Assembly: GCA_944391705.1 (NCBI GenBank)
Contig: CALXUN010000018.1
Coordinates: 1-32,285 of the forward strand
Origin: an uncultured Alphaproteobacteria bacterium
GTDB taxonomy: Bacteria; Pseudomonadota; Alphaproteobacteria; RF32; CAG-239
Direction of reading: 5' to 3'
DNA: 32,285 nucleotides
Positions within the stretch are counted from its first letter, which is position 1, and every line of letters starts with the position of its first letter. A program made the translations under genes and the position numbers. The notes beneath the pieces are model-generated. The model was not told the origin of the DNA. It ran no database searches and was given only the letters and a program-made list of their open reading frames with translations. Positions 13,533 through 32,285 of this stretch are shown here, piece after piece.

Positions 13533-14435
13533 ATGAGAAAGTTATTATGGCTGATTTTTTTGGCTGCCGTTTGTTTTGTAACCGGAAGCGCGGTTTATAC
13601 CGGGTTTTATAAAAATTCACTGGATTATAAAATATCCCGCCTGCTGCAGGGAAAAGACGTTCATGCCGGCGTGGCGGTTGTTGAAGATGGCCGCTATTGG
13701 GCGGCCGGAAACATAAGGCAGCCTTTAATGAGCGTTTTTAAATTTTTTATTGCCCTGAAAGTCCTGGATAAAATTTATACGGATAAGACTGATTTGCAGA
13801 CAAAAATAACCGTGCAAAAAAACATGGTTGAAAAAACGCTTTACAGTCCGATGTTAAAAAAATACCGGCATTTTCCGGCCGGGATCAGCCTGGCAGAATT
13901 GTTGGAATATATGCTTGCCCAAAGCGATAACAATGCGGCCGATATTTTGCTTGAATATGCAGGCGGGGCCAAAGAAGTGGAAGAATACTTAAAAACCATC
14001 GGTTTTAAAGAGATTACCGTTACGGTTAACGAACGGGAGATGAATGCCGATATTGAAAAACAGCTGCTTAATAAAGCATATCCTTTAGATGTTGCCCGGG
14101 TTATGCAAAAAGCATTTGACGGGAACATTCTGCCCTCGTATCAAAAAGATTTTCTTAAACAGATGTTGCTAAAAACCACAACCGGCAATGATAAAATTAA
14201 GGCCGGATTACCGCCGCAAACGGTTGTCGGCCATAAAACCGGTTCATCTTCGCGCCGGGAAAACGGGGTCAAAATCGCAGACAACGATGCCGGTTTTGTC
14301 GTTCTTCCCGACGGGCGGAAATATTATATCGTTGTCATGCTCTCTGATTCAAAAATGTCAGATGAAGAAAATGCCGGTCTGATAGCCGGGATATCATCGG
14401 TTGTTTATGCACATTTGTTAAGCGGTGTAAAATAA
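13533..14435 (+). CDS. Class A beta-lactamase, subclass A2-like
   Basis: The 300-residue protein has all class A catalytic motifs: the SxxK pair Ser67 and Lys70 in SVFK, SDN at 131-133, the omega-loop Glu167 with Asn171 (EREMN), and KTG at 235-237. An N-terminal hydrophobic segment (about 4-22) is a signal peptide or anchor. The spacing and sequences MSVFKFFIALKVLDK, YSPML and AQSDNNAADILL resemble the CfxA/CblA/PER/VEB branch (A2), which is common in Bacteroidetes. It should hydrolyse beta-lactams in the periplasm; spectrum cannot be read from sequence. It stands between the tag operon and a converging protease gene only 6 bases away. Confidence 0.9.
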   Translation: MRKLLWLIFLAAVCFVTGSAVYTGFYKNSLDYKISRLLQGKDVHAGVAVVEDGRYWAAGNIRQPLMSVFKFFIALKVLDKIYTDKTDLQTKITVQKNMVEKTLYSPMLKKYRHFPAGISLAELLEYMLAQSDNNAADILLEYAGGAKEVEEYLKTIGFKEITVTVNEREMNADIEKQLLNKAYPLDVARVMQKAFDGNILPSYQKDFLKQMLLKTTTGNDKIKAGLPPQTVVGHKTGSSSRRENGVKIADNDAGFVVLPDGRKYYIVVMLSDSKMSDEENAGLIAGISSVVYAHLLSGVK

Positions 14436-14441
14436 AAAAAA

Positions 14442-15242
14442 TTAACGATTGCGGATGTTAAAATCGCGAATTAAAGCTTTCGCCAGACTGCGGCGGAAAA
14501 ACTTTTCCCCTTCCGTGATGCAATCCGGGCAAATCGGCGGTAAATCGTGCGCTTTAAAGATTAAACGGCGGCGGGTAATGTCGCTAAAATCGCCGTCCAA
14601 ACGCTGCTGCATAATACAGTTTTCATCGGCACAATGTGGACCGAGTTGTTCATAGGTATTGATTCTGCCTTCCCGGGTCAAGCCGATGGCATGTCCGAAT
14701 TCATGCATGACAACGGTTTTAAATCCTTCCTGATCGAAAACGCCGTCAGGCCTGATAAAACGTGCAGTGGAAACAATGGAAAAAGCATCTTCTTTACTAA
14801 CCCCTAGGCAAAAATTCAATAACCTGCCGTTGCTTTGGGTACCGTATAAATCGTGTTTGGTGAGCAAAATCTGAATTTGCGGGATTCTTTTGGCATAAGG
14901 GTCGCGTGATAAATTATCATAAAGCGAATCAATACTGATTTGTCCGTTTACTTTGATCTTTCTGTTGTTCAATTTTATGCCGGAAGCACGCCCGTCGCTT
15001 ATGGCTTGTTGTGCCGCCTGGCCGATGTACCAGTTTGTACTTTCATAGGCTTCAAGGAGAAGTTTTCCATCGCTGGCCGTGCGTAAATGTTCGCTTTCCC
15101 AATTGCCGAGGACGGTTATCGGATATGCTTCTTTGAATGCGGGAAAACAGGACATAACTTCCTCAATGGCTTCTTTTGCTATTGGCGCCACCGGTTCCAG
15201 CCCTTTTTCATGTGCAATGTAAATATCTTTAATTTTTATCAT
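14442..15242 (-). CDS. Archaemetzincin-like zinc protease
   Basis: The 266-residue protein carries the zinc-protease signature HEFGHAIGL at residues 180-188. It is followed by His203-Cys204, then Cys209 and Met211 (HCADENCIM), then CPDC at 238-241. This is the archaemetzincin (family M54) order HExxHxxG, HCxxxxCxM, CxxC. However, a stretch of about 14 residues sits between the HExxHxxG part and HC, and the spacing to CxxC is longer than usual. There is no signal peptide, so it is probably cytoplasmic. Residues 1-150 look like no family I can name. The substrate is unknown. The gene reads towards the beta-lactamase gene, with 6 bases between them. Confidence 0.7.
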   Translation of the reverse strand: MIKIKDIYIAHEKGLEPVAPIAKEAIEEVMSCFPAFKEAYPITVLGNWESEHLRTASDGKLLLEAYESTNWYIGQAAQQAISDGRASGIKLNNRKIKVNGQISIDSLYDNLSRDPYAKRIPQIQILLTKHDLYGTQSNGRLLNFCLGVSKEDAFSIVSTARFIRPDGVFDQEGFKTVVMHEFGHAIGLTREGRINTYEQLGPHCADENCIMQQRLDGDFSDITRRRLIFKAHDLPPICPDCITEGEKFFRRSLAKALIRDFNIRNR

Positions 15243-19777: not shown

Positions 19778-20791
19778 TTATTTTGCGGTTTGAGCCGCCG
19801 GTGCTTTTGCGGTTTCAGCCGCCGGAGCTTTTGCAGTTTCAGCCGCCGGTGCGGTCTGTTTGCCGTTTTCGGTTTCTTTTTTATTTCCGGTTTGAGTTTC
19901 TGCCGCGTCATCTTTTTTGGTTTCCGGTGCGGCTTTCTTCGGGGCTATCGGAAAAATCTGCACGCCGTTATAAGTTTCAACCTTGGCTTTGGAAGGCTTT
20001 TTGTTTTTTGCTTTGGCCGGTGCAGATGTCTGCTGGGCCGGCATATTCGGCGTAACTTTTGCTTTAATCGGTTTATTTTCGGCAGCAGATGTCAGAATTG
20101 GTGCCAGCGGATAAGCGTCCTTGGGCAGCCGCATCAGCATATAGCCGGAACCGCCGCCGTATGCCGGGCCGGACAAGCCGATAGAGTAATATCCGCCGAT
20201 ATAGCCGTAATCCAAATCAATATAGTCAATGGCAAACAGGGTTTTAATGGTGGTGTTGCCGATGGTTGTCATTTTGCAGCTGTAACCGGCATCTTCCATG
20301 ACAATGTTGCTGGCATTTTTTACATAGACGAGCGTTTCTGCCGGTTTGCATACCGGTGTCTGACCATTATAGGTAACGTTGTAGTTTAAAACCAGATTAA
20401 GCGACTTATTGCCCAAAGCTGCCGAAACGTCGGTAATTTTAACATCGTCAATATACATGTTAGCCGGTGTAACGCCGACGGTAATCGGAAGTGTTACATA
20501 ATTTTCCGTGCAGACATGGCTGGCAGCATCGGCAGCGCAGAGCAGGGCTTTGCTTTGCGTGTTATTGTCCAAAAGGTGCAAAAGGGAATTATAAATATAT
20601 TCTTTTGACATGGAAAGTTTTGCCGGGGCGCACTGTTTTGAACGGCAGACGACAACCGAACGCGGCAGGCTTATCTGCGGCTGCCAGACTTCTGCCCGCT
20701 GGCTGCCTGAATATCCCGGATTGCTGCTGCAGGAAACAATGGCGGCAAGAGCGCCGAAAGCCGATAAACTTAAACTGAATTTTTTCAACAC
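19778..20791 (-). CDS. Lipoprotein with Ala/Pro/Lys-rich repeat tail
   Basis: The 337-residue protein has a lipoprotein signal with lipobox IVSC (Cys21). The middle part (about 30-245) is beta-rich with cysteines, including RSVVVCRSKQC, and a glycine/tyrosine-rich stretch (DYGYIGGYYSIGLSGPAYGG). From about residue 255 to the end it is low-complexity Ala/Lys/Pro/Glu, finishing in two full and one partial copies of an 8-residue unit (AETAKAPA), encoded by 24-base repeats at about 19783-19850. The start is GTG at 20791, with GAGGG 7 bases upstream. I do not recognise the family; an envelope surface or wall-spanning role is inference. Confidence 0.7.
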   Translation of the reverse strand: MLKKFSLSLSAFGALAAIVSCSSNPGYSGSQRAEVWQPQISLPRSVVVCRSKQCAPAKLSMSKEYIYNSLLHLLDNNTQSKALLCAADAASHVCTENYVTLPITVGVTPANMYIDDVKITDVSAALGNKSLNLVLNYNVTYNGQTPVCKPAETLVYVKNASNIVMEDAGYSCKMTTIGNTTIKTLFAIDYIDLDYGYIGGYYSIGLSGPAYGGGSGYMLMRLPKDAYPLAPILTSAAENKPIKAKVTPNMPAQQTSAPAKAKNKKPSKAKVETYNGVQIFPIAPKKAAPETKKDDAAETQTGNKKETENGKQTAPAAETAKAPAAETAKAPAAQTAK

Positions 20792-20914
20792 GGTCAAACC
20801 CTCAATATTAAATCCTATAATGAAAAACTTAACGCAATAATATGAAAGAATCGTAAACAAAAATTTGGGTTGCGCAAATTTTATAAATCCTTATACTAAA
20901 GGAGGATTTTTAAA

Positions 20915-23689: not shown

Positions 23690-24679
23690 TTATTTTAACG
23701 CTTCAATAATTTTAGCGGCAATCTGCTCATAGGCTTTGGTGTGCGGACTTTCCGGTTCTGCCATCACAATCGGAGTACCGTTATCGGCATTTTCCCGGAT
23801 TTTAATATGCAGCGGAATTTCGCCCAGGAAAGTTTCGCCTAGTTTTCCGGCAGTTTCTTTCGCACCTTCATGGCCGAAAATGTCTGCCCGGTGGCCGCAC
23901 TTTTCACAAATATAATAGCTCATATTTTCAACGATTCCCAAAATCTTAACCCCGATTTTTTTGAACATGTTAACACCTTTGACGGCGTCAATTAAAGCAA
24001 TATCCTGCGGCGTGGAAACAATCACGATGCCGTCAAAATCAATCCGCTGCGAAAGCGTAATCTGAATATCACCGGTGCCGGGCGGCATATCAATAACCAT
24101 AATATCAATCTCCCCCCAGTCAGTTTCGGTTAAAAGCTGTTCAATGGCACCGCAGGCTTTGGCGCCACGCCAGATAAGAGGTGTGTTGCGGTCAATCAGC
24201 GAACCGATAGACATGGCCTCAATGCCGAAATTGCGAAACGGCTCAAATAATTTTCCGTCATAGGAAACCGGCGGCGTATTTTCAAAGCCGAGCATGGTTG
24301 GCAGCGACGGACCGTAAATGTCGGCATCAAAAAGGGCAACTTTTTTTCCGAGGTTGGCAAGTGCCAAGCCTAAATTGACCGCAGTGGTCGATTTTCCGAC
24401 CCCGCCTTTGCCCGAAGCCACGCCGATGATTTTTTTAACCCCGTTAATGCGCCACTTTTCAATTTCGGGGCCAAGACCGGTATTTTGGGAAGTCTGGCTG
24501 AAAATGACCGAAACCTTTTTAATGCCGTCCAAAGCGGAAAGTTCTGCTTTAAGTTGTTCGGCAAGAGCAGCCTGTTCGGGAATGTTTTTTAAGGTAACAA
24601 TCAGCCGTCCGTTAAAATTTTTAACGCTTTCGATATTTTCGGCGGCAAAATATTTTCTGACAATGTTTTCTTCGTTCAT
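23690..24679 (-). CDS. mrp: Mrp/ApbC iron-sulfur cluster carrier ATPase
   Basis: The 329-residue protein is a P-loop Mrp/NBP35 ATPase. An N-terminal DUF59-like domain (about 1-65) precedes the deviant Walker A GKGGVGKST at 90-98, and CxxC (Cys258, Cys261 in ICEKCGH) binds the cluster at the dimer interface. It loads [4Fe-4S] clusters onto apoproteins. The ATG at 24679 has GGAAGG 7 bases upstream; an in-frame TTG two codons earlier is less likely. It is divergent from hflK, a common alphaproteobacterial arrangement. Confidence 0.95.
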   Translation of the reverse strand: MNEENIVRKYFAAENIESVKNFNGRLIVTLKNIPEQAALAEQLKAELSALDGIKKVSVIFSQTSQNTGLGPEIEKWRINGVKKIIGVASGKGGVGKSTTAVNLGLALANLGKKVALFDADIYGPSLPTMLGFENTPPVSYDGKLFEPFRNFGIEAMSIGSLIDRNTPLIWRGAKACGAIEQLLTETDWGEIDIMVIDMPPGTGDIQITLSQRIDFDGIVIVSTPQDIALIDAVKGVNMFKKIGVKILGIVENMSYYICEKCGHRADIFGHEGAKETAGKLGETFLGEIPLHIKIRENADNGTPIVMAEPESPHTKAYEQIAAKIIEALK

Positions 24680-24812
24680 CTTCAAGCCTTCCGGTGTGGA
24701 TATTCTTGTTTGCGTAATTGTTTTTAAGATACATTTATATTATTTTATCAGAAGATGTAAATGCCTTTGTTATATATGCAAGGATAATTCAACTTTTTTT
24801 AAGGAAAAAAAT

Positions 24813-25877
24813 ATGGCACAGAAAAATAATCCCTGGGAAACAGATCTTCCGCCCGAAACACCGGATGCCGGTGGTGAAGCCGTCCGCCGCGCCAAGCCGG
24901 AACCGTTGCGTATTGCAAAATTTTCCGGTGTTAAAAATGATTTTAAATTTCCGGTCAAACTGGTTGCCGGCATTTTAGTTTTGTTGTGGCTGGCTTCCGG
25001 TTTTTACCAAATTCAGCCGAGTGACCAGGGCGTTATTTTGCGTTTTGGAAAATATGTTGATACCACGAGTGCCGGTTTGCATTATCATCTGCCGTATCCG
25101 GTTGAGAAAGTCATTAAGGTAAATGTAACCAAAGAACGCAGCATAAATTTGGGCGTAACCGAAACCGCCAATATTCCGGCACAATATTATAACAGCAACC
25201 AGTCCAGCGTTGCGCTTAATTCATTTACCGAAAGCCATATGCTGACCGGCGATGAAAATATCGTCGATATTAATCTGACGGTTGTCTGGCGCATTAAGGA
25301 TGCAAAAGATTACCTGTTTAATGTCCGCAGCCCCGATGTAACGGTCCGTGTGGCGGCACAATCGGTTTTGCGCGAAATCGTCGGCCAGTCCGAAATGCAG
25401 CCGATTATCACCGGTGACCGCGGCCTGGTGGAAGAACAGACCAAAGCCGAGCTGCAAAAAGTTTTGGATGATTTTGGTGCCGGTATTGTGATTGTCCGCG
25501 TCAAATTGCAAAAGGCCGATCCGCCGAAGCAGGTTGTTGATGCGTTTAATGAGGTTCAGCGCGCCAAAGCCGATATGGAAAGGTTTAAAAACGAAGCAGA
25601 AGCCTACCGGAATGAAGTTATTCCCAAGGCCAGGGGTGAGGCGGCTAAACGCTTGCAGGAAGCAGAAGCCTATAAAGAAGCCGTTGTTAATAAAGCCAAA
25701 GGTGATGCTAAGCGTTTTACCTCGGTTTATAATGCCTATAAACAGGGAAAAAAGGTAACCTCGCAGCGTATGTATCTGGAAGCTTTGGAAGATGTTTTGG
25801 CTAAATCCGAAACGGTTGTGATTGATCCGTCGGCCAAAGGGGCAAATGTCTTACCTGTATTACCGGTCAAAAAATAA
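24813..25877 (+). CDS. hflK: HflK, SPFH-domain regulator of FtsH
   Basis: The 354-residue protein has a proline/charge-rich cytoplasmic start, a membrane segment at about 46-65 (KLVAGILVLLWLASGFY), and then the SPFH/band 7 domain (QPSDQGVILRFGKYV to about 270) and a coiled-coil rich in Ala/Glu/Lys. With HflC it forms the cage around the FtsH protease in the inner membrane. The ATG at 24813 with AAGGAA upstream is chosen; a longer open frame extends back over mrp but is antisense to it. hflC follows after 14 bases. Confidence 0.95.
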   Translation: MAQKNNPWETDLPPETPDAGGEAVRRAKPEPLRIAKFSGVKNDFKFPVKLVAGILVLLWLASGFYQIQPSDQGVILRFGKYVDTTSAGLHYHLPYPVEKVIKVNVTKERSINLGVTETANIPAQYYNSNQSSVALNSFTESHMLTGDENIVDINLTVVWRIKDAKDYLFNVRSPDVTVRVAAQSVLREIVGQSEMQPIITGDRGLVEEQTKAELQKVLDDFGAGIVIVRVKLQKADPPKQVVDAFNEVQRAKADMERFKNEAEAYRNEVIPKARGEAAKRLQEAEAYKEAVVNKAKGDAKRFTSVYNAYKQGKKVTSQRMYLEALEDVLAKSETVVIDPSAKGANVLPVLPVKK

Positions 25878-25891
25878 GGGAGAATAAGTAA

Positions 25892-26758
25892 ATGAAAAAT
25901 AATGTTAGATATTCCGTCTTGATAATCCTTGCTGTCGTCATTATGACGCTGGCGGGTTCCCTTTATGTTGTGGACCAGACCGAACAGGTTATAGTTTTGC
26001 AGTTTGGCGAGCCGGTGCGTGTGGTTAAAGAGCCGGGTTTAAAAGCAAAAATTCCTTTTATCCAGAAGGTGGTTTTTTATGACAAGCGCCTGCTTAATCT
26101 GGATCCGCCGGGGCAGGAAATCGTTTTAAACGATAAAAAGCGCTTGGATGTTGACAGCTTTACCCGTTATCAGATTGTTGACCCGCTAAAATTTTACCAG
26201 ACTGTGCGTACGGAAATAATTGCCCGCAGCCGTCTGGAAGAAATTGTTAATTCTTCGGTCAGAAATGTTTTGGGCCGGGTAACGCTGCCGGAACTTTTAT
26301 CTGAGAAGCGTTCGGAAATTATGGCCGAAATGAGCAGTCTGGTTAAAAAAGATGCGGAGCAGATAGGCGTAAATGTTGCGGAAGTCCGGATTCGCCGGGC
26401 TGATTTGCCGCTTGAGGTGCTGCAGGCAATTAATGACCGGATGAAAGCCGAACGTGAGCGCGATGCACGTGAAGCGCGCGCCGAAGGGCGGCAGGCCGCA
26501 CAGCAGATTCGTTCAACGGCAGACAAAGAAAGCACCATCATTATAACCGAAGCCGAAAAACAGGCACAGATTATCCGGGGTGAAGGAGATCGTGAAGCAA
26601 CCGAAATCTGGAACAAAGCGGCCGGAGCCGATCCGGAATTCTATGCTTTCTATCGTTCTTTGGAAGCTTATCGAAAGTCTTTGGGAAAAGAAAACAATTC
26701 GTTTATTCTTTCGCCGGAATCCGAATTTTTCAAATATTTTAACGGGACTAAAGGTTAG
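25892..26758 (+). CDS. hflC: HflC, partner of HflK
   Basis: The 288-residue protein has one N-terminal membrane segment (about 8-27), then an SPFH domain starting VVDQTEQVIVLQFGEPV, and a long Ala/Arg/Glu-rich coiled coil at about 180-235. It pairs with HflK to modulate FtsH. AGAATAAGTAA before the ATG gives only a moderate ribosome binding site. It ends 2 bases before the protease gene. Confidence 0.96.
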   Translation: MKNNVRYSVLIILAVVIMTLAGSLYVVDQTEQVIVLQFGEPVRVVKEPGLKAKIPFIQKVVFYDKRLLNLDPPGQEIVLNDKKRLDVDSFTRYQIVDPLKFYQTVRTEIIARSRLEEIVNSSVRNVLGRVTLPELLSEKRSEIMAEMSSLVKKDAEQIGVNVAEVRIRRADLPLEVLQAINDRMKAERERDAREARAEGRQAAQQIRSTADKESTIIITEAEKQAQIIRGEGDREATEIWNKAAGADPEFYAFYRSLEAYRKSLGKENNSFILSPESEFFKYFNGTKG

Positions 26759-26760
26759 TT

Positions 26761-28080
26761 ATGTCTTTTAGAAATTTTCTTGCCGCCGGTTTGGCTGTTT
26801 TAAGCAATGCCTTTCCGGCTTTTGCCCAAAATTCCTTTGCACCGCTGGTTGAGCGGGTGATACCTTCTGTGGTTAATATTTCAACTGAACTGGAAAAGAC
26901 GGTCGATTCGCCGGGAGTGGCAAATGATTTGTTGTTTTCGGCAGACGGACGTGCTGCATTGGGTTCGGGTTTTATTATCAGTGAAGACGGTTATATTGCA
27001 ACCAATTATCATGTGATTGAAAAAGCAAGTAAAATTTCGGTTGTAACGGCAAACGGTGCTGTTTATGAAGCCGTTTTGACCGGTAGTGATACCAAAACCG
27101 ACATTGCCCTGGTTAAAATAGATACCAAAGAGAAACTGCAGCCGGTTGAGTTTGGGGATTCGGACAATATCCGCGTCGGCGACTGGATTTTGGCAGTCGG
27201 CAATCCGTTTGGATTGGGAAGCAGCGTTACGGCCGGGATTGTTTCTGCCAAGTCGCGGAATATAGAAGAGGGGCCCTATGATGACTATATCCAGACAGAC
27301 GCTTCCATTAACCAGGGAAATTCCGGCGGTCCGATGTTTGATATGGAAGGGAAAGTTGTCGGCATCAATACGGTTATATTTTCCAAAACAGGCAACAGTA
27401 CCGGTGTCGGTTTTGCCCTGCCTTCCAATCAGGCGGCATGGGTTATCGGGCAGCTGCGTGAAAAAGGTGAGGTCAAACGGCGCTGGCTGGGGCTGGAAAT
27501 CAAACCGGCCAAACTGGAAGACGGCCGGCAGGGGCTAAGCATAACGGCGGTAAAAGACAGTACTCTGGCACAAAAAAACAATTTACAGGCCGGTGACGTT
27601 ATTTTAAGTTATGACGGAATTACGGCAGCCTCAGGTAAAGACTTTTCTCTATATACATCAAAACTTCCGGCCGGACGGGATATCAGGCTTCAAATCTGGC
27701 GCGGTGGCGAAATTTTTAATTTGGATGTAAAGACAGTGCCGCTGCCGGAAAGTGATGTGCCGGACACAAAACAACCGGCAGAAGAAAATATTGAGCCTGA
27801 AAACAAATCCCTTCCGGGAACTTATTATGCCGGTTTGGGGCTGCGTTTGGATAATTTTCAGGTTGTTGACGTCGATATTAAAAGCGAAGCATCGCAAAAA
27901 GGGGTTAAAACCGGCGATGTGTTGCAAAAAGTTAACCATGCGCCGATATTCGTGATGGAAGAATTGAGCCGGCAAATTGAGGAGGCAGCTTTAAGCGGTG
28001 AACCGCTGCGGCTTGATTTTGCAAGCCCGGACGGTGAGGAATATTTTGTTGAATTGTTTGTTGCAAAAAAACAGGAATAA
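26761..28080 (+). CDS. degP: DegP/HtrA-family periplasmic serine protease
   Basis: The 439-residue protein has a signal peptide (1 to about 22, ending AFA) and an S1C protease domain with triad His84 (NYHVIEKA), Asp114 (TKTDIALVKI) and Ser188 (GNSGGP). Two PDZ domains follow: about 240-325 (LGLEIKPAKL start) and about 350-435. This is the DegP/DegQ/MucD layout for periplasmic protein quality control. The DUF2065 gene often found between hflC and degP in proteobacteria is absent. It is coupled to hflC and followed by holC after 5 bases. DegP versus DegQ naming is not decided. Confidence 0.93.
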   Translation: MSFRNFLAAGLAVLSNAFPAFAQNSFAPLVERVIPSVVNISTELEKTVDSPGVANDLLFSADGRAALGSGFIISEDGYIATNYHVIEKASKISVVTANGAVYEAVLTGSDTKTDIALVKIDTKEKLQPVEFGDSDNIRVGDWILAVGNPFGLGSSVTAGIVSAKSRNIEEGPYDDYIQTDASINQGNSGGPMFDMEGKVVGINTVIFSKTGNSTGVGFALPSNQAAWVIGQLREKGEVKRRWLGLEIKPAKLEDGRQGLSITAVKDSTLAQKNNLQAGDVILSYDGITAASGKDFSLYTSKLPAGRDIRLQIWRGGEIFNLDVKTVPLPESDVPDTKQPAEENIEPENKSLPGTYYAGLGLRLDNFQVVDVDIKSEASQKGVKTGDVLQKVNHAPIFVMEELSRQIEEAALSGEPLRLDFASPDGEEYFVELFVAKKQE

Positions 28081-28085
28081 CAGAT

Positions 28086-28535
28086 ATGAGCCGGATAGAT
28101 TTTTACCATTTGCAAAAGCAGAATTTGGAGGCTGTTCTCCCGAAGTTGTTGGAAAAAGCATATGCGTCCGGCAAGAAAATCAAGGTAAAAGTTGGCAACG
28201 AACTCCGGGTAGAGTTTTTAAATGCACTTTTGTGGACATATAATGATGAAAGCTTTTTGCCGCACGGCAGCAAAAAAGACGGCAGCGGAGAACTGCAGCC
28301 GATATGGTTTTCTGCCGATGATGATAATCCGAACGGGGCGGAAATGCTGTTTTTAACAGATGGTGCGCAGCCGCCGGATGATATCGGGAATTTTGAACGT
28401 GTCTTTAACGTTTTTGACGGCAACAATGCCGAAGCGGTTGATGCAGCGCGAAATTTATGGCGCCGGCTTAAAGCCGGGGGCGGTGAGCTTCACTACTGGC
28501 AGCAGGATGCCTCCGGTCGTTGGACGGAAAAATAA
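28086..28535 (+). CDS. holC: DNA polymerase III chi subunit
   Basis: The 149-residue protein matches HolC: DFYHLQKQNLEAVLPKLLEKAY at the start is the family opening, LLWTYNDESFLPHG the conserved centre, and the C-terminal WRRLKAGGGELHYWQQD the end typical of alphaproteobacterial chi. It links the clamp loader to single-strand binding protein. It is fifth bases downstream of degP, apparently in the same operon; its usual neighbour pepA is not here. Confidence 0.9.
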   Translation: MSRIDFYHLQKQNLEAVLPKLLEKAYASGKKIKVKVGNELRVEFLNALLWTYNDESFLPHGSKKDGSGELQPIWFSADDDNPNGAEMLFLTDGAQPPDDIGNFERVFNVFDGNNAEAVDAARNLWRRLKAGGGELHYWQQDASGRWTEK

Positions 28536-28637
28536 CCGGAAGCAAGGTTGACAACCGGGAAAAAAATCTTGCGAAAATATAAATAACATTATAGCTTAAC
28601 TTATAATTTGATAAAAAGGAACTTTAGGAGATTATTT

Positions 28638-29603
28638 ATGGCTGAAAATAAAGATATTGCCAACGCCAAACGGACAATTGACAAAGAAATAGAAGCTTTG
28701 AAATATATGGAAGCCGCACTGGATGAAAATTTAAGCAAGGCTTTGGATATGATGGAAAATTGCAAAGGCCGCATTGTTGTTACCGGTATGGGAAAATCCG
28801 GTCATGTCGGTCGCAAAATATCAGCAACTTTAGCCTCAACCGGCACACCGTCATTTTTCGTGCATCCGAGTGAAGCCAGCCACGGCGATTTGGGAATGTT
28901 GTCTACTGACGATGTTGTCATTGCTATTTCAAACAGTGGTGAAACGAAGGAACTTTCAGACATTTTGCTTTATTGCAAACGTTTCAATATTCCGCTGATT
29001 GCCATTACCAAAAATCCTAAAAGCGCCCTCGGGATAAACAGTGATTTGGTCTTAAAGCTCCCCGATGACGGCGAAGCTTGTCCTTTGGGGCTGGCACCGA
29101 CCTCTTCCACGACGGCCACAATGGTTATGGGAGATATCCTGGCCGTTGATATGATGGAACGCAAAGGCTTTTCGGAAACGGATTACAAGCAGCGTCATCC
29201 GGGTGGAAAACTGGGTGCTATTTTGCGCAAAGTTTCAGACTTAATGCACAGCGGTGAAGATATGCCGGTGGTTGATGAAGACACATCAATGCAGGAAGCT
29301 TTAATCGTGATGACCTCCAAGATGCTGGGTTGCGTTGGTGTAACGGATAAAAACGGTGATTTAATCGGCATGATAACGGATGGTGATTTAAGACGTTGGA
29401 TGTCACCGGAATTAATGACTCAAAAAGTTTCGGCGGTCATGACCAAAAATCCGAAGACAATTCGTCCGGATGCTTTGGCAATTGAAGCTTTGAAGACGAT
29501 GAATACGACCGGCCGCGGTATTACCAACCTGTTTGTGGTTGAAGGTAAAAAACCGATAGGGCTTATCCACATCCATGATTGCCTGCGGGCGGGAGTTGCT
29601 TAA
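28638..29603 (+). CDS. kdsD: Arabinose-5-phosphate isomerase (KdsD/KpsF)
   Basis: The 321-residue protein combines a SIS sugar-isomerase domain (about 35-170, TGMGKSGHVGRKISATLAST and SNSGETKE) with two CBS domains (about 205-321). It converts ribulose-5-phosphate to arabinose-5-phosphate, the first step to Kdo for lipopolysaccharide. The ATG at 28638 has AGGAG 8 bases upstream. It heads an LPS block with the LptC-LptA fusion and lptB; kdsC, often next to it in gammaproteobacteria, is not present. Confidence 0.95.
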   Translation: MAENKDIANAKRTIDKEIEALKYMEAALDENLSKALDMMENCKGRIVVTGMGKSGHVGRKISATLASTGTPSFFVHPSEASHGDLGMLSTDDVVIAISNSGETKELSDILLYCKRFNIPLIAITKNPKSALGINSDLVLKLPDDGEACPLGLAPTSSTTATMVMGDILAVDMMERKGFSETDYKQRHPGGKLGAILRKVSDLMHSGEDMPVVDEDTSMQEALIVMTSKMLGCVGVTDKNGDLIGMITDGDLRRWMSPELMTQKVSAVMTKNPKTIRPDALAIEALKTMNTTGRGITNLFVVEGKKPIGLIHIHDCLRAGVA

Positions 29604-29606
29604 AAC

Positions 29607-30782
29607 TTGGTTGATTTCCATAAAATTGACGCTTTTTTTAATGGGGAAACGGCTTTTGAAAATGAAAATCCGGTAAAATTGAGCCGTCGTGCCCGGGTTT
29701 TGCGCTGGGCAAAACTTTTGATGCCGTCGTTGGCCGCAGTTTTAATTGCACTTTTATTGCTGTTTCCTTCATTAAAAGACAACGATGTCGTAAACAGTCT
29801 GGATGTAACGCTGCCCAAGAAAGGCGAGCTTGAAAAGCTGCATATGGAACAGACGGAATTTTCCATTACTGATAAAGATAATAAAATCAGCACGTTTTTT
29901 GCCGACCAGGTTGATGAAACCAAAGCCGGATCCAAGCTGTTAAAAATTATCAATCCGGAAGGAAATATTCCGGCCGGGGATAACCGCTTTGTCAATATTG
30001 ATTCCGACATCGGCTATTATAATCAGGAAACACAGGTTATAGAACTGGAAGAAAACGTCGTTGCCGTCTATGATGAAGGAACGACGGCTGAGACGGAATA
30101 TGCCCGATATGATTTTAAAGCCAACTATGGCAACGGCAATCAACAAGTTTACGCCTATGGCGCATGGGGTAAACTTTGGGCGGAAGGTTTTAAGTATTAT
30201 CAAGAAAAAGAACTGATTGTTTTGACCGGTAAATCAAAAGTCAAAAATGAAGATAACACGCTTTGGGCGGACAAAGAAATCCGCTATTATCGGACGGAAA
30301 ACCGCTTGGAAGCGGAACAAAACGTCAAGGCGGTTAATCTTGAGAATACGATGTATGCTGATTTGATGAAAACTTTTTTTGTTGCCGGATCGCAAAAGGA
30401 AATTGAAAAAATAGAAGCCTACGGCAATGTTCGCATCATAGACGACGCTAATACAATATATGCCGATAAGATGATTGCTTTGATGCGGGCGGATAAGAAA
30501 AATACCATTGAAAAAATTGAAGCGTTTGATAACGTAAAGGTTGTTACCTCCGATGGTACAGCCAATGGTAATTACGGCCTATATTTTCCCGAAAAAAACG
30601 AGGTTGAACTGCGGCATAATGTCATCATCATACAAGACGGCAATGTTATTAAAGGTGATAAAGCCGTAACCAATTTAACCACATCGGTAAGTAAGGTTTT
30701 GGCAGATAAAACAAATAAGAAACGCGTCTCGGGCGTGATTACCGGCGCAACGGTCAAAGGTGAAAAACATGATGAAAAATAA
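29607..30782 (+). CDS. LptC-LptA fusion, LPS transport
   Basis: The 391-residue protein reads as two LPS-transport proteins in one chain. Residues 1-35 are cytoplasmic and basic, about 36-56 a membrane anchor (AKLLMPSLAAVLIALLLL), and up to about 200 an LptC-type periplasmic domain. From about 203 to 377 the sequence follows LptA/OstA: ADKEIRYYRTENRLEAEQNV, IEAYGNVRI, IEAFDNVKV, ELRHNVIIIQDGNVIKGDK and a final RVSGVI. No second signal peptide separates them. Separate LptC and LptA are each near half this size. It would tether a continuous beta-jellyroll bridge to the inner membrane. The start appears to be TTG at 29607 with a distant GGGAG; no better start precedes the anchor. It overlaps lptB. 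Confidence 0.8.
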   Translation: MVDFHKIDAFFNGETAFENENPVKLSRRARVLRWAKLLMPSLAAVLIALLLLFPSLKDNDVVNSLDVTLPKKGELEKLHMEQTEFSITDKDNKISTFFADQVDETKAGSKLLKIINPEGNIPAGDNRFVNIDSDIGYYNQETQVIELEENVVAVYDEGTTAETEYARYDFKANYGNGNQQVYAYGAWGKLWAEGFKYYQEKELIVLTGKSKVKNEDNTLWADKEIRYYRTENRLEAEQNVKAVNLENTMYADLMKTFFVAGSQKEIEKIEAYGNVRIIDDANTIYADKMIALMRADKKNTIEKIEAFDNVKVVTSDGTANGNYGLYFPEKNEVELRHNVIIIQDGNVIKGDKAVTNLTTSVSKVLADKTNKKRVSGVITGATVKGEKHDEK

Positions 30783-31509
30783 TTCAGAATCAATTTTAGA
30801 AATTTTTAACATCGGCAAAAAGTATAAAAATCGCGCGGTGTTAAAAAATGTTTCTCTACACGTCCGTCGTGGCGAGGCTGTCGGTTTGCTTGGTCCCAAC
30901 GGTGCCGGCAAAACCACCTGTTTTTATTGTGTGATCGGTTTGATTACGCCGGACTATGGTGATGTGCATATTAACGGCGAAGACATTACCAATATGCCGA
31001 TGTACCGCCGCGCTCGTATGGGGATCGGTTATTTGCCGCAGGAAGCTTCCATTTTCAGAAGTTTAAGCGTTGAAGATAACATTAAAGCGATTTTGGAAAT
31101 TGTGGAAGAAGATGAAAGCAAGCGTGAAAACACGTTGGAAGAATTGTTAAACGAGTTTTCTATTGCCCATTTAAGAAAATCTCCGGCGATTGCCTTGTCC
31201 GGCGGCGAGCGTCGCCGTTTGGAAATTGCCCGTGCGCTGGCCAGCAATCCGGATTTTATTTTGCTTGACGAACCGTTGGCCGGTATTGACCCGATTGCGG
31301 TGGGCGAGATTCGTTCTTTGGTGTCGCAGCTTAAAAATCGCGGTTTAGGCGTGTTGATTACCGACCACAATGTCCGTGAAACGTTGGATATTATTGACCG
31401 TGCTTATATTTTGCATGGCGGATCGGTTTTAATGGAAGGAACACCTAAAGAAATTGTTGCCAGCAAAGAAGTCCGCAAAGTCTATTTAGGCGATAATTTT
31501 TCCATGTAA
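30769..31509 (+). CDS. lptB: LPS export ABC transporter ATPase LptB
   Basis: The 246-residue protein is the ATPase that drives LPS extraction with LptF/LptG/LptC. Walker A GPNGAGKTT is at 42-50, the ABC signature LSGGE at 143-147, and Walker B FILLDEP at 163-169. GYLPQEASIFRSLSVEDNI is the typical LptB Q-loop region. The ATG at 30769 is favoured by AAAGG 8 bases upstream; it lies inside the end of the fusion gene (14-base overlap), so the two are translationally coupled. In most alphaproteobacteria rpoN would follow; here a pilin-like gene converges 17 bases away. Confidence 0.95.
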   Translation: MMKNNSESILEIFNIGKKYKNRAVLKNVSLHVRRGEAVGLLGPNGAGKTTCFYCVIGLITPDYGDVHINGEDITNMPMYRRARMGIGYLPQEASIFRSLSVEDNIKAILEIVEEDESKRENTLEELLNEFSIAHLRKSPAIALSGGERRRLEIARALASNPDFILLDEPLAGIDPIAVGEIRSLVSQLKNRGLGVLITDHNVRETLDIIDRAYILHGGSVLMEGTPKEIVASKEVRKVYLGDNFSM

Positions 31510-31526
31510 AATATGGAAAAGGAATT

Positions 31527-32162
31527 TTACTGCCACAAAATGTACAGTGTACATTGCTCTTCATCACAAATGTTACACAAGTTATCCAGATCATTTAAAC
31601 TCAAATTGCGCAGACATTTATTACCGTTGCCGCAATAATTATCACCGTATAAATGTCCGTGCATGGTAAGGTCTTCTGAATCTGTATAATGTTTGTATGT
31701 TTCCACCAACCATAAGTTTTGAGCGTTTTCTTTAGCGACATTAGTGATGTTGCGGCAAGTTTCAAGACCATCCGGAGATGGATAAAAAGTATAACGGATG
31801 CCGCCAAAGTCATTTTGAAAGCTTCCGTTTTGTGCATTGTTATAATAGATGGTTATACTATTGTTGAAAATATCACGCATATCGGTATTGCTGATATAAC
31901 GGATACCGTCGGGAATCAATCCCAGCTTTTTAAAAATAAGGTTGTAATATGTTGTTGTCCCTTTATTGTGTGGTAAATGGTCTTTGTATTGTAAACCATA
32001 ATTAATTAAAATATTTGCAGCTTCAGCTTGTTTGTTGAGCTTGTATTTCATCATGGCTTTGGAATAACCGGAAATGGCACCGACGCTCAAAACGCCGATA
32101 ATTGCTAAAACCCCCAACATCTCCACCATACTTCTACCGGAAGAAATTGCGTATAACGGCAC
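31527..32162 (-). CDS. Type IV pilin-like protein
   Basis: The product is a prepilin: a short leader ends in Gly before RSMVEMLGVLAIIGVLSVG, with Glu at +5 of the mature protein and a hydrophobic N-terminal helix. This is the class III signal cut by prepilin peptidase. With GTG at 32162 the leader is 9 residues (PLYAISSG after the start), and AAAAGGG lies 8 bases upstream, so I prefer this start, giving 211 residues. The same frame stays open upstream to the window edge, with a GTG at 32243, so a longer form cannot be excluded. The C-terminal part holds six cysteines. It likely belongs to a pilus or type II-like secretion pseudopilus; no assembly genes are in view. Confidence 0.8.
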   Translation of the reverse strand: MPLYAISSGRSMVEMLGVLAIIGVLSVGAISGYSKAMMKYKLNKQAEAANILINYGLQYKDHLPHNKGTTTYYNLIFKKLGLIPDGIRYISNTDMRDIFNNSITIYYNNAQNGSFQNDFGGIRYTFYPSPDGLETCRNITNVAKENAQNLWLVETYKHYTDSEDLTMHGHLYGDNYCGNGNKCLRNLSLNDLDNLCNICDEEQCTLYILWQ

Positions 32163-32285
32163 ATCTAAAGCCCTTTTACGCGAAGTCGGAAAATTCACGT
32201 ACGCCTTTTGTACGCTGGAATTTTTCTCCCCGCTAGAAAGCACTTTATCTGCACCATTCTCCGCAATTTCAGAATGTGCATGAGA

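Follow-up and report, generated by a model that had tools for sequence, protein, structure and literature searches.

In the Lpt system of E. coli, LptA binds LptC through its N-terminus and can be crosslinked to LptD at its C-terminus (PMC10094684, in the part available), and the LptA copy number of the bridge is described as unknown or debated in the available parts of four papers (PMC5575297, PMC7347655, PMC10094684, and PMC10863985). From AlphaFold2 models of the bridge, one LptA has been argued to be sufficient for ~15 nm (PMC10863985), and a stable LptA oligomer was found not to be strictly essential, monomeric LptA mutants being described (PMC5575297); in the LptC-LptA-LptD assemblies modelled or mutated in these two papers, as presented in the portions available, the proteins form a head-to-tail continuous jellyroll. 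The accessible portion of PMC8727689 contrasts Lpt with LetAB, in that Lpt bridges the membranes via small interacting proteins.

The window analysed here, a stretch of 32,285 nucleotides from an uncultured alphaproteobacterium, carries a fused lptC-lptA gene. The fused form resembles the Lpt systems of E. coli and of the relatives with separate lptC and lptA (split relatives) in its genes, its slot between kdsD and lptB, its jellyroll folds, and its partners LptB, LptD, LptE, LptF, and LptG, but it is one chain rather than two and the LptA signal peptide is gone, as are, in the window's genus, the N-terminal ~90 residues of LptA; fused relatives vary in length by module-sized steps, whereas split pairs are nearly constant. 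It shares the head-to-tail continuous jellyroll of the modelled and mutant assemblies, but those are of E. coli, whereas the fused form is a natural 1:1 version in one gene. It is like LetB (YebT) in that a single polypeptide forms a path across the periplasm, and unlike it in having no LetB family membership; it would, moreover, still require the LptF and LptD jellyrolls at its ends. The LetB fold consists of MCE rings unrelated to the Lpt jellyroll, and no MCE family is among the four Pfam matches of the fused protein at E ≤ 1.

A preliminary description of this DNA had proposed a single-chain LptC-LptA protein encoded in one uninterrupted frame, exactly where separate lptC and lptA would lie. 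Both points were confirmed: the 391-codon frame is intact from TTG to TAA, and the order kdsD-[lptCA]-lptB is supported by NCBIfam matches of the neighbors, the upstream product matching TIGR00393 at 305 bits but falling short of the equivalog cut-off for KdsD (351.6 against 505), and the downstream product matching LptB (TIGR04406) at 379 bits. The features of the locus are as follows:

28608..29603, + strand: kdsD (arabinose-5-phosphate isomerase), 3 bp upstream of the fused gene; start codon uncertain
29591-29595: putative ribosome-binding site GGGAG, plausible from reading the sequence upstream of the fused gene
29607..30782, + strand: fused lptC-lptA gene, 391 codons, TTG at 29607 and TAA at 30780-30782
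29685..29762, + strand: codons 27-52, sole transmembrane or anchor helix, LptC-type (model helix H27-52, pLDDT ~54-76; hydropathy 3.31)
29841..30248, + strand: codons 79-214, LptC beta-jellyroll (PF06835 residues 45-212; strands E79-88 to E210-214)
30246..30257, + strand: codons 214-217, seam, a two-residue turn between the final LptC strand and the first LptA-derived strand (strands E210-214 and E217-221)
30252..30743, + strand: codons 216-379, LptA-derived jellyroll that stops after the conserved R-V-S-G motif (PF03968 stretches; family LptA profile)
30402..30506, + strand: codons 266-300, 35-residue module (105 bp), repeated in the sister species L121 (tandem array and alignment)
30769..31509, + strand: lptB (LPS export ATPase), with its start ATG (30769 or 30772) overlapping the fused gene's stop

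The codon of the lptC or fused gene at family LptC profile position 1, perhaps not the true start in every row, is TTG at 45, GTG at 26, and ATG at 9 of 80 loci (the best 80 of 83), and in the examples shown a GGAG-type site lies directly upstream of it, within the last part of kdsD. LptC dosage may be set by a conserved weak start codon. Upstream of kdsD, the neighbors at 24318-28535 (+) include a trypsin-PDZ protease and HolC (both by Pfam) and two further proteins that we take to be HflK/HflC-like.

The N-terminal anchor and LptC-like domain of the preliminary description, and an LptA-family match in the C-terminal half, were recovered in the fused protein. Pfam LptC (PF06835) matches residues 45-212 at 46.9 bits (cut-off 21), and the LptD_N/LptA domain (PF03968) matches two stretches at 56.5 bits (cut-off 20.4), the best being 269-359. 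Among the NCBIfam models, LptC (TIGR04409) is above its cut-off (62.8 against 38), and the LptA equivalog cut-off (TIGR03002) is missed (50.8 against 71.7 bits), so the protein is not classed as a stand-alone LptA. Hydropathy over 12 residues peaks at 3.31 near the N-terminus and reaches at most 0.97 beyond residue 75, compared with peaks of 1.71-3.34 at the N-termini of split LptAs (n = 34); judged by hydropathy only, no second segment of signal-peptide strength was found in the window's protein, in agreement with the earlier reading. Hydropathy was rejected as a clean divider of fused and split forms, because in 20 fused proteins the values beyond residue 75 reach 1.97 (L072), above the weakest split N-terminus (L094, 1.71); the remaining 33 split N-termini are at 2.05 or higher.

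The C-terminal half had been described as a full LptA, and this proved wrong. In the window's genus, LptC appears from profile matches to be joined to approximately the C-terminal half of LptA, in which one module occurs in two copies. Aligned to a family LptA profile of 259 positions built from 28 split LptA sequences, the LptA part of the window's protein follows positions 109-186 and then 140-250; the second stretch scores 115.3 bits and ends in LptA's own conserved terminal motif, and a counterpart of the N-terminal ~90 residues of LptA, the part that docks on LptC, is absent. With sub-profiles of the N-terminal and middle modules (L050 left out of both), the segment at the seam scores 36.1 bits with the middle and 13.4 with the N-terminal module. 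Of the 10 fused proteins closest to the window (counting the window itself, with L120-L126, L128, and L139), 9 prefer the middle module, the exception, L126, being a near tie in the opposite direction. The N-terminal module scores higher at the seam in L150 and the L156-L180 group (genus g3), and in the L185-L199 group (g4) the seam is ambiguous because both modules mostly score low. All four proteins of a second fused lineage (L175, L177, L181, and L183) are fitted better by the N-terminal module: L175 follows profile positions 14-89 and then 140-252, and L183 retains 17-258. Another fused protein, L085, retains 22-253, which is nearly the whole of LptA.

A single-chain model of the fused protein, made with 29 related sequences and no templates, has a mean pLDDT of 82 and a pTM of 0.69, with blocks of 92-96 over residues 201-250. 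The modelled strands around the seam (203-207, 210-214, 217-221, and 224-228) lie in blocks with a pLDDT of 94-95, and in this model the final strand of LptC turns straight into the LptA-derived strands. In split relatives a short tail ends LptC and a signal-peptide-like stretch opens LptA, and neither was found at the seam. Foldseek comparison of the model with the PDB returned LptH/LptA (2r1a_A, TM 0.77 of the target), LptC (6mit_C, TM 0.66), and also LptD; whole-query TM is ≤0.34 among the Lpt matches listed, the solved LptA and LptC chains being less than half as long. A phmmer search of PDB sequences with the fused protein gave no match at E ≤ 10.

Codon comparisons indicate that purifying selection acts across the seam. 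Relative to L120 and L121, from which the window differs at dN 0.07-0.17, dN/dS is 0.03-0.10 in the segments for which it could be computed (five of six), junction codons included, and the 32 seam codons (200-231) give 0.10 against L120 and 0.06 against L121; against the more distant L122, the segments that could be computed (two of three) give 0.17 and 0.33. These ratios are rough, since several of the dS estimates approach saturation or exceed it.

The host genome (G000; 1.49 Mb, 37 contigs, 100% complete) has LptB, LptD, LptE, LptF, and LptG. Across it, PF03968 matches only the fused frame, in three stretches, and one 783-codon frame, which is LptD (Pfam, 163 bits) and adjoins one of two LptF/LptG-type genes (217 bits for this one); LptE is also present, at 29.5 bits (cut-off 23). 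A search for a separate lptA elsewhere in this genome, with PF03968 and with the family LptA profile, found none. The same profile, run at E ≤ 0.01 over 49 genomes of the family, found no separate lptA in any of the 19 that are fused, where it matched the fused frame and in some cases also an LptD-sized frame. A separate lptA in an assembly gap is conceivable for G000 but hardly for 19 fused genomes at once. A genome of genus g14 (G029, 99% complete) has no match to the fused protein, and in it the LptA profile matches an LptD-sized frame only, possibly because of an assembly gap.

To the question raised by the preliminary description of how related genomes are arranged, the answer is that the fusion recurs among near relatives. 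Among 80 named GTDB loci (the best 80 of 83 relatives), 32 are fused, 46 are split, and 2 are cut by contig ends (L173 and L188). Nearly all are labelled Alphaproteobacteria or proteobacteria, many from rumen or gut and one as Azospirillum sp. CAG:239; we take the group to be GTDB order RF32, family CAG-239. By genus, the fused genomes number 4/4 in g1, 4/4 in g3, 5/5 in g4, 2/2 in g5, 2/3 in g14, whose third genome is without the locus, and 2/4 in g11; three congeners carry the window's kdsD-lptCA-lptB arrangement. On a tree of KdsD plus LptB (80 rows; L152, L169, L173, L181, and L188 dropped), the fused or split label needs three changes, all three forced by starred branches, compared with ~25.7 in shuffles. 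A second, careful tree of 40 rows, comprising 10 fused and 10 split loci of the window's family together with class-level loci (L206 and L213 dropped), requires six changes, of which at least four are forced by starred branches, and in it several class-level rows sit on long branches, two of which meet. On this phylogenetic evidence the fusion arose several times within the Alphaproteobacteria, and the different breakpoints of L175, L183, and L085 relative to the window agree with separate origins.

In a class-wide sample, 118 of 134 genomes have an LptC match, and 16 have LptC frames of at least 339 codons (LptD-sized frames of 737-778 left aside); six of these are fused (the window, G087, G095, G101, G132, and G136) and 10 are split. 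Both domains are above the Pfam cut-off in L085, L210, and L214. L209 and L212 are weak class-level fusions, having LptC with Pfam LptA absent or below cut-off. In a sample of the phylum, 138 of 150 genomes match, 102 of them outside the class and with an LptC-type match apart from LptD, a count that excludes G235, an out-of-class genome matching solely in its LptD. None of these 102 is fused by a frame-length screen, which fusions shorter than 339 codons would escape, and the three with frames of at least 339 codons are all split; a fusion general across the phylum was rejected on this count. The long in-class frames of the phylum sample other than the window (G077, G298, G274, and G327) are also split. 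In the class sample, 5 of 18 genomes of ≤1.5 Mb are fused compared with 1 of 100 larger ones (Fisher p = 2.7e-4, uncorrected for kinship and with candidates picked by frame length), so a link between fusion and small genomes is a lead only.

Taken with the domain content and the position of the gene, the data make it very likely that one membrane-anchored periplasmic protein fills the roles of LptC and LptA together. The N-terminal jellyroll would dock to LptF and take LPS from LptB2FG, as LptC does; the last beta-strand of LptC would run into the LptA-type strands, replacing the noncovalent docking of LptC and LptA, and with these strands directly joined the greasy groove would form one continuous chain along which LPS is transported, the LptA-type C-terminal edge presumably docking on the N-terminal jellyroll of LptD. 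Given that E. coli LptA has its LptC-binding site at the N-terminus and its LptD crosslinks at the C-terminus, the fusion joins ends that normally dock. From the gene anatomy we infer that the bridge is covalently tethered and that LptC and LptA stand in a fixed 1:1 ratio, as a single chain implies that each bridge in the cell would hold exactly one LptC and one LptA-equivalent.

A different history would make the gene an extended LptC, in which LptA was lost, LptC grew rungs by duplicating its own modules, and the C-terminal half derives from LptC or OstA. This is very improbable in view of the match of the C-terminal ~110 residues to LptA profile positions 140-250, terminal motif included, of a gene that occupies exactly the lptC plus lptA slot, and of the nearly whole LptA kept by L085 and L183, even though LptC and LptA have homologous rungs that cross-match each other's profiles, tandem module duplication does occur in the gene of the sister species L121, and the window's first LptA-derived stretch is a poorer fit to the N-terminus of LptA than to its middle. 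The fusion might also be cleaved after export to give a normal LptC and a free LptA, but the seam, a turn of two residues, lies between strands modelled with high confidence and has no signal-peptide-like stretch, and a piece cut there would miss the N-terminal ~90 residues of LptA, the LptC-binding end in E. coli; cleavage is accordingly very improbable. The named fused relatives are apparently all metagenome assemblies, as an assembly or frameshift artefact would have it, but the arrangement is common to 33 assemblies (the 32 named loci among the best 80 of 83, plus the window), the fused loci cluster on the KdsD plus LptB tree rather than scattering as in shuffles, and dN/dS across the seam is 0.06-0.10 against the two nearest relatives, so that an artefact has a practically negligible chance of accounting for the gene.

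The length of the bridge was compared between fused and split forms as the span between two conserved motifs, EK in LptC and R-x-G in LptA (L158 and L169 dropped; L152 kept, although its lptA runs off the contig). In 44 split LptC plus LptA pairs the span is 357-370 residues (median 363), the LptA part being 219-232, and two split outgroups (362 and 364) and a further split member of the order (360) are alike. The span of 33 fused proteins ranges from 263 to 410 residues, in classes of 263 (6 proteins), 298 (the window), 305/308, 336/337, 347, 359, 372, 377/378, 401, and 410. The independent fusion L085 spans 364, the length that one LptC and one LptA have together in split relatives. Outside the 44, the split genome G015 (L050) has a 158-aa LptA, ~100 residues short, and an LptC plus LptA span of 261, close to the shortest fused class. 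Because one LptC plus one LptA (median 363) falls inside the fused range and one LptC plus two LptAs (median 588) falls outside, split relatives too would use one LptA per bridge.

KdsD plus LptB of the window and of its sister L121 share 93% identity, yet the bridges of the two differ by 74 residues. Inside the L121 gene lies a 105-bp tandem array of 2.2 copies with 94% matches, indicating that this fused length class was reached via tandem duplication of the module. The model of the L121 protein (mean pLDDT 82) has 15 strands after the seam compared with 11 in the window, counts that omit one 3-residue strand at each end, and each 35-39-residue module therefore adds two long strands. Tandem Repeats Finder reported arrays in 2 of 33 fused genes (the 105-bp module of L121 and an 18-bp unit in L185) and, among 46 split lptA genes, in 3, with units of 9-18 bp. 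Recent duplication was rejected as a general signature, the module array at the DNA level being found in one species only (L121); in the other fused genes we infer module duplication from lengths and alignment. The usual rise per strand is 4.8 Å, at which 74 residues correspond to ~2 nm and the full fused range to ~4 nm. For scale, one E. coli LptA is ~40 Å long (PMC10863985, available part).

A compensating change in LptD was rejected, because its N-domain is constant at 156-157 residues between alignment landmarks in all 24 genomes measured. Length change expressed as mean squared contrasts is 5083 in fused proteins (30 contrasts) and 20 in split ones (41 contrasts), but the medians are alike (2.2 and 2.1; rank test p = 0.58), and a steadily faster change in fused proteins was rejected, the means being driven by a few jumps. 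Fused genes mostly stand still and sometimes jump in length. We suggest, as a conjecture in which we place somewhat less than even trust, that fusion frees the Lpt bridge from a length constraint: split pairs stay near-fixed, and single chains gain or lose whole two-strand modules while LptD is unchanged, so that the chains would be natural rulers and one LptA-equivalent per bridge would be enough. If so, bridges within one genus differ by ~2 nm and those of the lineage span ~4 nm.

The Lpt system itself is known, and what appears to be new here, from gene content, is a natural single-chain LptC-LptA form of its bridge. No report of a natural LptC-LptA fusion is among the literature matches listed for LptC/LptA, a scope that stops short of most subscription papers and of InterPro architectures, and there is no mention of one in the available parts of PMC8727689, PMC10208570, PMC8407342, PMC8871954, PMC9938171, and PMC3688454; a database-level listing of the fusion may exist. 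A natural one-chain bridge in genomes where no other LptA was found would set the LptA number at one equivalent for these bacteria. The fused gene is also a single-gene version of the LptC-LptA docking event, and the fused bridges offer a series of known, different lengths for relating bridge length to periplasm width.

Several other proteins are encoded in the window. Convergent with lptB, the product of 31527-32243 (-) has the N-terminus RSMVEMLGVLAIIGVLSVGAISGYSKAM, which we take to be prepilin-like, and no Pfam match at E ≤ 0.001. At the same threshold Pfam gives no match for a 360-aa protein at 19778-20860 (-), lipoprotein-like by eye and with KAPAAETA-type repeats at its end, nor for a 266-aa protein at 14442-15242 (-) containing HEFGH, presumably a zinc-protease-type motif. 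The product of 13533-14435 (+) has a serine beta-lactamase-type domain (PF13354, 2.8e-39) and, by eye, an N-terminal hydrophobic segment.
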